64,000 bases of DNA. Origin: Aeoliella mucimassa. Lineage in GTDB: Bacteria > Planctomycetota > Planctomycetia > Pirellulales > Lacipirellulaceae. The translations under genes and the position numbers were made by a program. Shown here piece after piece: positions 58,701 to 63,227 of this stretch. A model generated the notes under the pieces. That model saw only the letters and a list, made by a program, of their open reading frames with translations. It made no database searches and had not been told where the DNA came from. Position 1 is the stretch's first letter. Each line of letters starts with the position of its first letter. The stretch spans positions 62,001-126,000 of the forward strand of contig NZ_CP036278.1 of the NCBI RefSeq assembly GCF_007748035.1, written 5' to 3'.

Positions 58701-58855
58701 CATGCTAGCACTCCTGGGAATCTGTCTTGCTGTACTCTGGCGGTCTTGGTAATTTCCGCCACCCACAAACACTGTGCGCGCGATCCGCGAGGGCGAAGGA
58801 AAGCTCTCGCCGCGACGCATCCGCCCGCCATCCCACTGGTTTACGGAGAACCATC

Positions 58856-60790
58856 ATGGCCCGCCCGACCCGTAACGATTCCGTTGATCCCTCTGCCAGC
58901 CGCACGCGCCGCTGGCCTTGGATGCTTGCCAGCACGGTGCTCGTGCTCGGCGTTGCCCTGGCGACTCGGTACTTTGGTACCACCGCCGAGGCCGAAGCCG
59001 CCGCGCCGGCTCGCACGAGCTCGCAAGTGAAGCAAGCCAGCGCCCAGGAGCCTGCGTACCAGCCACCCGAGCACGACGTGATGGCCATCGTCAACGGCGA
59101 GGACATCAATCGCCGTGACCTGGAACGGGCGTGTGCCGAGCGATATGGCGAAGACGTTCTGGAGAGCATGGTCAACAAGAAGCTCATCCAGCACCATTGC
59201 AAGAAGCGTGGCATCACCATTACCCAGCAGGAAGTGGAAGACGAAGTGGAGCGCATGGCCAAGCGATTCAAGCTGAGCCGCGAGCACTGGTTGGAACTGC
59301 TGGCGAACGAGCGTGGTATCACCGAGCAGGAATACAAACGCGACATTCTCTGGCCGACCATTGCGTTGCGTAAGCTGGTGGCTACCGAACTGACCGTGAG
59401 CGACACCGAGCTTCGTCAAGAATATGAAAAGCAGTACGGAGCGAGCGTTCGTGCCCGCATTATCGTGGTTGGCAATCAGGCTCGCGCTCAGCAGTTGCAT
59501 CAGCAGCTTACCGCGAACCCCGACGACTTCGCCCGCTTGGCGATGAGCGACTCGATCGACGTGAACAGCGCCAGCATCGGCGGCTTGATCCAACCGATTC
59601 GCCAGCACATCGGCGACCCCGGCATCGAGCGGGCCGCGTTCTCGCTGCAGCCTGGTCAGATCTCGAACATCATTCCTGTTGGTAATCAATTTGCCATCCT
59701 TAAGTGCGAAGGCATCAATCCTCCGCGTGGTGTTGATTTCGCAGCCGTTCGTCCCGAGCTGGAAGAACTGATCCGCGATGGTAAGCTTCGTGAAGAAGCG
59801 GCTAATCGGTTTGCTGAGTACCAGAAGGTGGCTACTGTGCAAAACGTGCTCAACGATCCGCAGCTCAGCAAGCAAATGCCCGACGTCGTGGCCTTGGTCA
59901 ACGGCGACAAGATCACCGTTAGCGAACTTGGCAAAGAAGCCATGACTCGTCACGGGCAGGACGTGCTGTCGGTGGAAATCGGCCACAAGTTGCTCGAGCA
60001 AGCTTTGAAGGCTGCCGGCAAGACTGTCACGCAGCAAGACCTCAACGCCGAGATCGCTCACGCAGCCAAACTGGCCGGCGTGGTCGACGATCAAGGCAAT
60101 GCCGACGTGCAGGAGTGGGTGAAAACTACCACTGAGGAACAAGGGGTTACTTACAAGAATTACCTCCGCGATTCGGTTTGGCCCTCGGCAGCTCTCAAGA
60201 AGCTGACTTCTGGGCAGGTTCAGGTGACCGAGGATGATCTTCGCAAGGGCTACGAAGCCAACTACGGCGAGCGGGTTCGCTGCCGGGCCGTGGTGCTGGC
60301 CGACATGCGTCGGGCTCAGGAAGTCTGGGAGAAAGCCCGGGCGAATCCCACGCTCGATTACTTTGGTGAGCTTGCCGAGCAGTACTCCATCGAGCCTACC
60401 AGCAAAGCACTGCGTGGCGAGGTACCGCCGATTCGTTTGCACGGCGGTCAGCCTCAGTTGGAGCAGGTCGCGTTCGACATGAAGCCGGGCGATCCTCCTC
60501 GCATCCTTCAGCTCGGCGACAAGTACGTCGTGCTCAAGTTCGAAGAACGTACCAAGCCGCAGAATATCGAGTTCGCTGCTGTTCGCGACATCCTGATGCA
60601 GGATATCTTCGAAAAGAAGCTTCGCCTGGCGATGGCCAAGCGATACGACGAAATCTACTCGTCGGCTCGTATCGATAACTACCTGGCTGGCACCACGCAG
60701 GCGCCGAATCCAACCAAGCAGCAAGCGGCTGCGGCCAGTGCTGCACTTCGCCGCGATACCGCGGTTCGGCCCACGGCTGGTCAGCGATAG
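58856..60790 (+). CDS. Duplicated parvulin-type peptidyl-prolyl isomerase
   Basis: This 644-residue protein has a signal anchor (about 20-40, WPWMLASTVLVLGVALATRY), then two copies of a SurA-like unit. Each begins with a chaperone helix bundle (VMAIVNGEDINRRDLERACA; VVALVNGDKITVSELGKEAM) and ends with a rotamase-like domain (AFSLQPGQISNIIPVGNQFA; AFDMKPGDPPRILQLGDKYV). SurA has one chaperone core and two rotamases; here the whole unit is duplicated. It should help fold exported proteins. The ATG at 58856 has GGAG upstream. The antisense frame over it is a shadow. Confidence 0.87.
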   Translation: MARPTRNDSVDPSASRTRRWPWMLASTVLVLGVALATRYFGTTAEAEAAAPARTSSQVKQASAQEPAYQPPEHDVMAIVNGEDINRRDLERACAERYGEDVLESMVNKKLIQHHCKKRGITITQQEVEDEVERMAKRFKLSREHWLELLANERGITEQEYKRDILWPTIALRKLVATELTVSDTELRQEYEKQYGASVRARIIVVGNQARAQQLHQQLTANPDDFARLAMSDSIDVNSASIGGLIQPIRQHIGDPGIERAAFSLQPGQISNIIPVGNQFAILKCEGINPPRGVDFAAVRPELEELIRDGKLREEAANRFAEYQKVATVQNVLNDPQLSKQMPDVVALVNGDKITVSELGKEAMTRHGQDVLSVEIGHKLLEQALKAAGKTVTQQDLNAEIAHAAKLAGVVDDQGNADVQEWVKTTTEEQGVTYKNYLRDSVWPSAALKKLTSGQVQVTEDDLRKGYEANYGERVRCRAVVLADMRRAQEVWEKARANPTLDYFGELAEQYSIEPTSKALRGEVPPIRLHGGQPQLEQVAFDMKPGDPPRILQLGDKYVVLKFEERTKPQNIEFAAVRDILMQDIFEKKLRLAMAKRYDEIYSSARIDNYLAGTTQAPNPTKQQAAAASAALRRDTAVRPTAGQR

Positions 60791-60858: not shown

Positions 60859-60893
60859 GTCTTCGGTTGCAGAGCTAGTTTGAGTTGTAAATA

Positions 60894-61270
60894 CCAGAGA
60901 CGGCCTGTAAGCCGGGTTTTGTCGTCGCACGTGGCGACCGATGGTCATTCCTCTAGGATGCGAGTTGCCTCGCACCTCAAGCAGCCTACCCGAGAGTCGT
61001 AACGAGTCGAGCCGACTCTGCTCTCTGCTTGGCCTTGCGCCGGGTGGGGTTTACCCTGCCAGACGAGTCACCTCGTCCGCGGTGCGCTCTTACCGCACCA
61101 TTTCACCCTTACCGAAAAGCCATCGTAAGACGGCATTCTCGGCGGTATCTTTTCTGTGGCACTTTCCCTAGCCTCACGGCCGGTGGACGTTATCCACCAC
61201 CCTGCTCTACGTCGCCCGGACTTTCCTCTCGCCCACCGAAGTGAGCCAGCGACCATCCAGCCGTCTCTGG
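60894..61270 (-). ncRNA. rnpB: RNase P RNA, bacterial class A
   Basis: The minus strand carries the hallmarks of RNase P RNA, the catalytic part of the tRNA 5'-processing enzyme. GAGGAAAGTCCGGGC (P4 and the conserved core) lies near the 5' end, GGTGCGGTAAGAGCGCACC follows, and AACCCGGCTTACAGGCC is near the 3' end. CCAGAGACGGC at the 5' end pairs perfectly with GCCGTCTCTGG at the 3' end (helix P1), fixing the limits to about 377 bases. The plus-strand frames here are not genes. Confidence 0.95.
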
Positions 61271-61632: not shown

Positions 61633-62196
61633 TCAGTCGTATTCGGTATAGTCGATCTCCGGTTCCTTCAGCCAATCTTCGTCATCGTCTTCTTCAGCAC
61701 TGAGCCGAATGTTGGCCACTTTGGGGTCGAGGTAGTAGATGCCATACTTCGACTGGAGGATATGGAGAATCGCGTTTACTTCTGTCCAGCGACTTCCAAA
61801 TTCGGTGCGCCACTCGGCTTGAAATCGTCGCTGGTCTTGAGGGTCCACCAGGTAGGGTGGCGGAGCGTCGAGCGTGGCCTTGCCAAAGTCGAGAAGATAC
61901 GGTGCCTGCACAAAAGTAATCTCTATCACCCATAACTGGTCGTCGAAGTCTTCGAGCACAGGGACATTCAGTCCGCAGATTTCGTTCACTCCGTGAGACT
62001 GTAGTCGTTGGTAGCACCGCAATTCGTTGAAGAAGTTCTCCTCGCGGTAGAAGGCTTTAATGGCCGATGGAATGGATGTTTTCCACACATGACCGTCTGT
62101 TCCATGGCCCGGACTGTCTTGACGTAAAACCTGTCGCCCCTTACGTTTAGCGTAGTCGTAGCCATTCTTAAATAGCCTCTGATTGTCGGGAAGCAT
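61633..62196 (-). CDS. Compact protein-kinase-like protein
   Basis: This 187-residue protein shows the kinase landmarks in order. There is a glycine loop GHGTDGHV (30-37), Lys47 in AIKAF, Glu58 in NELRCYQRL, a hinge region near 90-100, and a catalytic loop YGIYYLDPKVANIRL with Asp157, Lys159 and Asn162. IDY with Asp182 stands where DFG is expected, five residues from the end. Thus the activation segment and most of the C-lobe are missing; a normal kinase is ~260 residues. It could phosphorylate a small target or be a binding pseudokinase. The ATG (62194-62196) overlaps the ATG of the divergent gene. Confidence 0.65.
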   Translation of the reverse strand: MLPDNQRLFKNGYDYAKRKGRQVLRQDSPGHGTDGHVWKTSIPSAIKAFYREENFFNELRCYQRLQSHGVNEICGLNVPVLEDFDDQLWVIEITFVQAPYLLDFGKATLDAPPPYLVDPQDQRRFQAEWRTEFGSRWTEVNAILHILQSKYGIYYLDPKVANIRLSAEEDDDEDWLKEPEIDYTEYD

Positions 62197-62431
62197 GGCA
62201 GCTCAAGCCAAGGGACATTCTGCGAAAGTCGGCATCACCCTGATTCAGGGCGGTCGGCGCATTCCTGTTGCCCAAGTGGGGAATAGTGGTTTGTTGGTGC
62301 GTGAGCTCGATGCCCCAGTGCCAGCAGGCGAGGCGGTTCTGCTCGTCAAAATCGATCAGCAACAAAAGCGACATCGCATTCTGTTGCCCGAGGGAATTAC
62401 CGAGGCTAATCGCTTCGTCAAATTCTTCTAG
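62195..62431 (+). CDS. Small basic protein divergent from the kinase-like gene
   Basis: This 78-residue protein begins MAAQAKGHSAKVGITLIQGG and continues RRIPVAQVGNSGLLVRELDA, then a strand-rich middle (AVLLVKIDQQQKRHRILLPE) and ends RFVKFF. It looks like a small beta-rich domain, with no signal or membrane part. The start codons of this gene and the minus-strand kinase-like gene share bases (CATG). No good ribosome site is seen on either side, so one start may be misplaced, but both frames have natural protein character. Family not recognised. Confidence 0.6.
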   Translation: MAAQAKGHSAKVGITLIQGGRRIPVAQVGNSGLLVRELDAPVPAGEAVLLVKIDQQQKRHRILLPEGITEANRFVKFF

Positions 62432-62531: not shown

Positions 62532-63227
62532 TTACCAGGCGACGTCGATCGCTTCGCAGAGAAACTTCATGTAGCCCTTGGCCGCTCGGTAGTGGTCGGT
62601 CGCGATGCGAGCCAGGTTCTTGTCGAACAACAGGTCGTAGTCGAGGTTCGCGACGGCGATGTGGTCCTTTCGCTTCAGGTCGTCCACGTACTTGTGGTCG
62701 GTGCCGAAGCCCCGCGGGGGACGCTTCAGGCTGTCGCCCGACAGTTCGAACCGCTGGCGGAAGGCTTTGCCATCGCGGGCACGCTTCCAGTCGCTGGGGT
62801 ACTCGTCGATCGTCTCGCGAATCGCCCGCAGGGTCGTGTTATCGGGATGCCAGATACCGGCGGCCAGGAAGACCTGGTCGGTGTCGATGTGGAAGTAGTA
62901 GCCAGGGCAGTGGACGTCCTTGCCGGTCTCGTGACGGAACTGGATGCCGACGTTGGTCTTGTAGGGCGACTTGTCGTTGGAGAAGCGGGTGTCGCGATGG
63001 ATTCGCATGAGCGAGCCTCCCACCTTCTTGGGCACCGCGGTCAGATGGGGCGAGATCTTCTTGAGCGGCTGCTCCATGGCCTCGATGAATTGCAGGGCGG
63101 GCTGACGCAATTCGGTTTCGTAGCGTTCGCGATTGGCATCGAACCACTGCTTGGTGTTGTGCCGCGACAGCTCTTCGAGAAAGTGCAGCAGGCCAAGCGG
63201 GAAGCCGGTAAACGGGGCGTGAGACAT
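62532..63227 (-). CDS. DUF2461 (TIGR02453) family protein
   Basis: This 231-residue protein has the family blocks FPLGLLHFLEELSRHNTKQW, RIHRDTRFSNDKSPYKTNVG and GYYFHIDTDQVFLAAGIWHP. Its biochemical role is unknown; proteins of this family are widespread in bacteria and fungi. The ATG at 63227 (MSHAPFTGF) fits the family start; a longer TTG/ATG-started frame upstream is less likely. Single gene. Confidence 0.88.
   Translation of the reverse strand: MSHAPFTGFPLGLLHFLEELSRHNTKQWFDANRERYETELRQPALQFIEAMEQPLKKISPHLTAVPKKVGGSLMRIHRDTRFSNDKSPYKTNVGIQFRHETGKDVHCPGYYFHIDTDQVFLAAGIWHPDNTTLRAIRETIDEYPSDWKRARDGKAFRQRFELSGDSLKRPPRGFGTDHKYVDDLKRKDHIAVANLDYDLLFDKNLARIATDHYRAAKGYMKFLCEAIDVAW

Follow-up and report, generated by a model that had tools for sequence, protein, structure and literature searches.

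A predicted minimal kinase-fold protein and a small, putatively PilZ-like barrel protein form a conserved divergent gene pair with overlapping start codons in Planctomycetota

The stretch of Aeoliella mucimassa DNA analysed here (64,000 nucleotides, referred to as the window) carries two small genes that, judged from comparative sequence, are a real, conserved, and self-contained divergent two-gene module. One gene, K, encodes a minimal kinase-fold protein, and the other, S, encodes a small predicted barrel and begins on the opposite strand of the same CATG tetranucleotide. The kinase family to which K belongs has already been flagged as CRISPR-linked, while the partner, the shared start, the pattern of decay, and a probable relocation of the DFG block within the kinase are new. 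The best explanation as a whole, given about an even chance of being correct, is that K is a permuted minimal kinase and S a barrel that restrains it, coupled by the shared start and serving a toxin-antitoxin-like or defence-accessory role.

Distribution and conservation of the gene pair

A conserved divergent pair in other planctomycete genomes, which the initial annotation had proposed looking for, was found in 12 of 392 genomes. Profile searches run separately for the two genes over these genomes of the phylum gave 13 genomes with K and 14 with S, the same 12 carrying both genes side by side, and the exceptions comprise a genome with only a broken K (G376), one with S but no K (G198), and one with a second copy of S (G409). 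A further S match within a 652-residue frame of genome G001 (E 9e-4) looks spurious. In G376, a nearly complete single-contig genome, K lies in three frame-shifted pieces without S (L114, L119, and L120). The module is thus patchy, being present in ∼3% of phylum genomes, and K occurs in 18 of the 43 genomes of the host's own family. The host genome itself encodes a second pair, formed by a K paralogue with 39% identity and an S paralogue beside it on the other strand; the two pairs lie at 0.12 and 4.12 Mb.

A single-sequence scan of the genome contigs found nothing, and a profile search based on an alignment recovered 80 loci in named records, mostly from Planctomycetota and some from Verrucomicrobiota, with further loci in whole genomes. 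Where the available sequence is sufficient, S is almost always directly divergent from K. Among the closest pairs, the majority have dN/dS values of ∼0.1-0.25 for K and for S, indicating purifying selection, and hence that both genes are translated and maintained. An origin from mobile elements was considered and set aside, as searches at the sensitivity used turned up no relative among IMG/VR viral contigs or in plasmids and phages.

Table 1. Positions of K, S, and neighbouring features in the window (residue numbers refer to K; neighbours are listed last)
Feature	Position	Strand	Basis
K, 187-residue minimal kinase-fold protein	61633..62196	-	translation; 73-member family; AF2 pLDDT 92; kinase fold matches
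Acidic C-terminal tail of K, residues 167-187, including D182; not a family feature	61636..61698	-	low AF2 confidence from ∼171
Catalytic loop of K, D157-N162	61711..61728	-	D157 72/73, N162 73/73; aligned on kinase catalytic loops
Proposed relocated DFG block of K, residues 98-113 (D103, F104, G105)	61858..61905	-	invariance; permutation/deletion tests; covariation
Alpha-C Glu of K, Glu58	62023..62025	-	73/73
Beta-3 Lys of K, Lys47	62056..62058	-	72/73
Gly-rich loop of K, residues 30-37	62086..62109	-	G30, G32, G35, V37 in 71-73/73
GGGAAG, possible weak ribosome-binding site of S, within K coding region	62188..62193	+	sequence; inferred for this copy
Shared CATG with both start codons	62194..62197	.	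sequence; ATG/ATG kept in 74/90 distinct homologous pairs
S, 78-residue PilZ-like beta-barrel protein	62195..62431	+	translation; 83-member family; AF2 pLDDT 88; PilZ-like matches
687-residue ORF	58727..60787	+	two PPIC-type rotamase domains, SurA-like N-terminal matches
Bacterial RNase P class A RNA, full length, just downstream of K	60892..61268	-	Rfam 314 bits
DUF2461 gene, beyond S	62535..63227	-	PF09365, 1.2e-64

Two start codons in one CATG

Sequence and translation bear out the reading frame first annotated for K, with its ATG start and 187 residues, and also the claim that this ATG overlaps that of the divergent 78-residue frame. Both start codons lie in a single CATG, and the two coding sequences therefore overlap by 2 bases. 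Divergent overlaps are the rarest class, accounting for ∼1% of well-characterised gene overlaps, and they often reflect misannotation; long ones are usually annotation errors, for which Rhodopirellula baltica has been singled out (PMC2478687). They are also strongly under-represented overall (PMC2174442). Within 771 kb, comprising the window and flanking sequence, a CATG joining two open ORFs of similar size, each closed upstream, was counted in ∼16 non-module cases, or one per 48 kb, most of which are presumably spurious. Taken alone, a single K/S start overlap is within chance; its conservation is beyond chance.

That conservation was assessed in 90 distinct homologous pairs, 74 of which permit ATG starts for both K and S in one CATG, and the starts of homologues, which might have proved to lie elsewhere, coincide in most of them with those in the window. 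The shared CATG is also the start chosen without reference to the partner gene in ∼65 of the 90, and inspection added a further pair with both ATGs in one CATG (L112). The spacing between the K core and the S core is variable, nearly always by multiples of three, which implies insertions and deletions on either side that left the overlap unbroken.

An ancestral accident without function, locked in because any change would break both starts, has only slightly less than an even chance of accounting for the shared CATG. Either start would be costly to lose, and across the 90 pairs no other nucleotide position around the CATG is comparably conserved. Leaderless transcription from the site was rejected, with TANNNT not enriched at the right distance and no leaderless -10 signal, which also suits a frozen accident. 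On the other side, the exact overlap persists in most pairs despite those insertions and deletions and despite the alternative start codons that many K/S loci offer, a persistence with which lock-in is still compatible. Shine-Dalgarno-like words are enriched upstream of S across the family (0.45 versus 0.19 in shuffled sequences) but not upstream of K (0.32 versus 0.27), and the signal upstream of S may in part be made up of K codons. No sigma-70-like promoter or terminator was found near the window pair.

K as a minimal kinase-fold protein

Structure prediction, proposed at the outset as a check on the kinase assignment, returned a kinase fold: the AlphaFold2 model of K, built with 73 sequences, has a mean pLDDT of 92. 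Its top Foldseek match is PRPK/Bud32 (E 2.7e-4), and VIA-align superposes it on APH(2'')-IVa (Z 9.6, 126 residues, rmsd 3.4) and on Rio2 (Z 9.2), while Foldseek against viral models returned generic kinases only. In the PDB, the K profile finds chiefly protein kinases, with weak matches, and in native order only 3 of 73 members match Pfam Pkinase (best 0.0084) and 3 of 73 match APH. Neither window protein had a significant match in Pfam, NCBIfam, or PHROGs.

The Gly-rich loop (G30, G32, G35, and V37), K47, E58, D157, and N162 are all placed as the initial annotation had them and are 97-100% conserved in the 73 homologues, and the catalytic-loop Asp and Asn form a D-x4-N motif. The same cannot be said of D182, which had been taken for the metal-binding Asp of a DFG motif. 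This residue is present in 1 of 73 aligned rows and falls within an acidic tail with EPxIDYxEY[DE] at its end, which is shared by the window protein and its two nearest relatives (L126 and L130) and lacking from the rest of the family; it was rejected as the DFG Asp for want of conservation. No Asp position C-terminal to N162 is conserved in the 73 rows, leaving that region without a DFG Asp. Chains end a median of 7 residues past N162, with a minimum of 3, among 62 full-length members. The earlier observation that the activation loop and C-lobe are absent therefore stands, in that K ends after beta-7 and lacks the C-lobe with activation loop of a Ser/Thr protein kinase (Pfam Pkinase), but K does not end after a metal-binding Asp.

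A probable relocation of the DFG block

A candidate for the missing motif lies elsewhere in the chain. The sequence L-D103-F104-[G/A] is invariant in the family (D103 and F104 in 73/73) and is located between the hinge and alpha-E, ahead of the catalytic loop. The small kinase-fold enzymes that match the K model best, namely PRPK/Bud32, the Ark1/ArkI RNA kinase, Rio2, and APH(2''), carry the DFG Asp after the catalytic loop, whereas K stops ∼7 residues past N162 and has its DF[G/A] in front.

The effect of this placement was examined by permutation, using 20 diverse members of the family and three versions of their alignment searched against PDB sequences. In native order the best E-value was 0.0056, with 61 matches below 1 and split alignments; with residues 98-113 deleted it was 0.0012, with 90 matches below 1; and with the block moved behind N162 it was 3.9e-5, with 168 matches below 1, the DFG aligned on DFG, and the alignment unbroken. 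Pfam behaved similarly, with Pkinase matched by 6/20 and APH by 4/20 after the move compared with 3/20 and 0/20 after deletion. The gain is not fully independent evidence, since LDFG resembles any DFG motif. The top covarying pair in the K alignment is K106-Y155 (0.52 versus 0.30 for the next), which joins a residue just past the DFG to the position of the HRD His, a signal that may be partly due to clade structure. Short strands in the AlphaFold2 model at residues 100-101, 108-109, 153-154, and 163-164 fit beta-8, beta-9, beta-6, and beta-7, respectively.

These results suggest that the DFG hairpin of K has probably been relocated and that the protein is a segment-permuted kinase with a complete active site, as opposed to a truncated one. 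The placement of the hairpin between hinge and alpha-E would make the active site complete despite the short chain, with K47, E58, D103, D157, and N162 contained in ∼165 residues that include neither activation loop nor C-lobe, and K would be a minimal phosphotransferase. It is unlikely that K is instead a pseudokinase, acting as a binding protein without a DFG Asp and with D103 purely structural or ribose-binding. D103 follows the hinge, a position from which an Asp can also contact the ribose of ATP, and no DFG Asp is found past the catalytic loop, both of which would fit a pseudokinase, yet K47, E58, D157, and N162 are nearly invariant, as in active enzymes, and the results of permutation, deletion, and covariation analysis favour a D103 that sits beside the catalytic loop. 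No papers on permuted kinases were found in the open literature, and none on how the PADLOC model described below originated, which is not proof of their absence.

Asymmetric decay and likeness to toxin-antitoxin modules

Among loci away from contig ends, both genes are intact in 67, a broken K accompanies an intact S in 21, and S stands alone in 4. No intact K without S was found; the two candidates were inspected, and one has a divergent S (L112) and the other an N-terminally truncated K (L074). If breaks fell according to gene length (∼2.2 to 1), the probability that 25 of 25 would fall in K is near 1e-4 by our own calculation, an argument weakened by assembly errors and shared ancestry. 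Some of the broken K genes may themselves be assembly errors. This is how a gene would behave that is tolerated only when its partner is present, as would be expected if K were a toxin and S its antitoxin, and it lends some indirect support to the toxin/antitoxin-like module first suggested for the window pair.

Several traits of type II toxin-antitoxin systems are seen here, including two small neighbouring genes that are rarely found apart and a partner that is kept when the kinase is lost, and not the reverse. Classical type II pairs are co-directional, whereas K and S are divergent in the pairs examined. HipBA and HipBST are likewise small two-gene modules with a kinase-fold member, and the survival of the partner after loss of the kinase is counted as a further likeness to them. 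The differences are that K and S do not form an operon and that the toxicity of K is putative.

Genomic context and the CRISPR link

The PADLOC model PDLC01137, "ST_Kinase," matches 73/73 K proteins and none of the S proteins. The window K aligns to it at 3e-23 over residues 10-164 (profile positions 7-161 of 162), and the two are the same protein family. PADLOC describes ST_Kinase from Rhodopirellula, with a putative adaptation module operon adjacent to I-C systems, and this description covers the kinase only, without the divergent partner, the shared start codon, or the relocated DFG block.

This history raises the prospect that the module is a defence accessory, in which K would phosphorylate a CRISPR-Cas or other defence component, S would be the sensor or regulator, and stand-alone copies would be leftovers or act in trans. 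In addition to the origin of the PADLOC model, the 136 nearest neighbours of K/S loci include matches to type I-G Cas3 (Cas3g) models (7), WYL (3), and MADS-like (2) models, relatives of cas3 and cas7 recur in the flanks, and cas-adjacent K proteins are spread over several branches of the K tree. Against this, a CRISPR-Cas neighbourhood is found for a minority of K relatives, there is no constant third gene beside K/S among the varied flanking genes, and no cas genes lie near either host pair. The host Cas1 genes (3584878-3585594 and 3976351-3977223 of G000:C1; 3.58 and 3.98 Mb) are far from both pairs. As a separate account of the module, defence accessory is accordingly rather improbable, and it overlaps with the toxin-antitoxin-like reading. 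Other arrangements include two tandem K/S modules in L076 (4643-7458), of which the first lies near a Cas3-like gene, and pairs adjoining a long protein that is UvrA-like by eye (L081, L087, and L098).

S as a small, putatively PilZ-like barrel

The AlphaFold2 model of S is a six-strand barrel (pLDDT 88). Structural comparison aligns it best with PilZ or PilZ-like domains, led by Alg44, PA4608, and Legionella Lpg0364, at moderate Z-scores of ∼5-6 with rmsd ∼2-2.7 over 59-66 residues and with no sequence support. Unlike PilZ domains, none of 83 S members matches Pfam PilZ, and the c-di-GMP motifs, with RxxxR in 9/83 and [DN]xSxxG in 3/83, are taken as absent. Perhaps S works like a PilZ-type adaptor, as the predicted fold hints, and it is not filed here as a PilZ protein. 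A non-toxic signalling pair, in which S would be a ligand-binding barrel controlling K and would owe its retention after K decay to a second role, draws on the PilZ-like fold, the purifying selection on both genes, and the retention of S alone, but is quite unlikely given that S lacks the c-di-GMP motifs and that so patchy a presence is unlike core signalling.

Proposed mode of action

In the preferred reading, the action of K is directed at a cellular target and is held in check by S. This is the most likely function, and it is put forward tentatively. K would be the phosphotransferase, S most likely restrains it, and in its behaviour the module would resemble a toxin-antitoxin pair or an accessory to defence. 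The shared CATG places the leader of each gene, and probably its promoter, inside the coding region of the other. If both genes are transcribed with leaders, complementary mRNA 5′ ends covering both initiation sites would follow from the geometry and should couple or oppose expression. Transcriptional interference between the genes, as first suggested for the window pair, is plausible on the same grounds. The furthest-reaching version, with a competent kinase whose DFG hairpin precedes the catalytic loop, a PilZ-like antitoxin, and mRNAs that mask each other's starts in a defence or addiction switch, is rather improbable.

Significance

As 74 of 90 pairs from Planctomycetota and Verrucomicrobiota retain the divergent overlap, it becomes directly testable how one start codon can serve two genes. 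S is a candidate regulator for a CRISPR-linked orphan kinase. If the relocation of the DFG block is true, the kinase fold tolerates reordered catalytic elements, and a whole family that can now be read as truncated would be complete.
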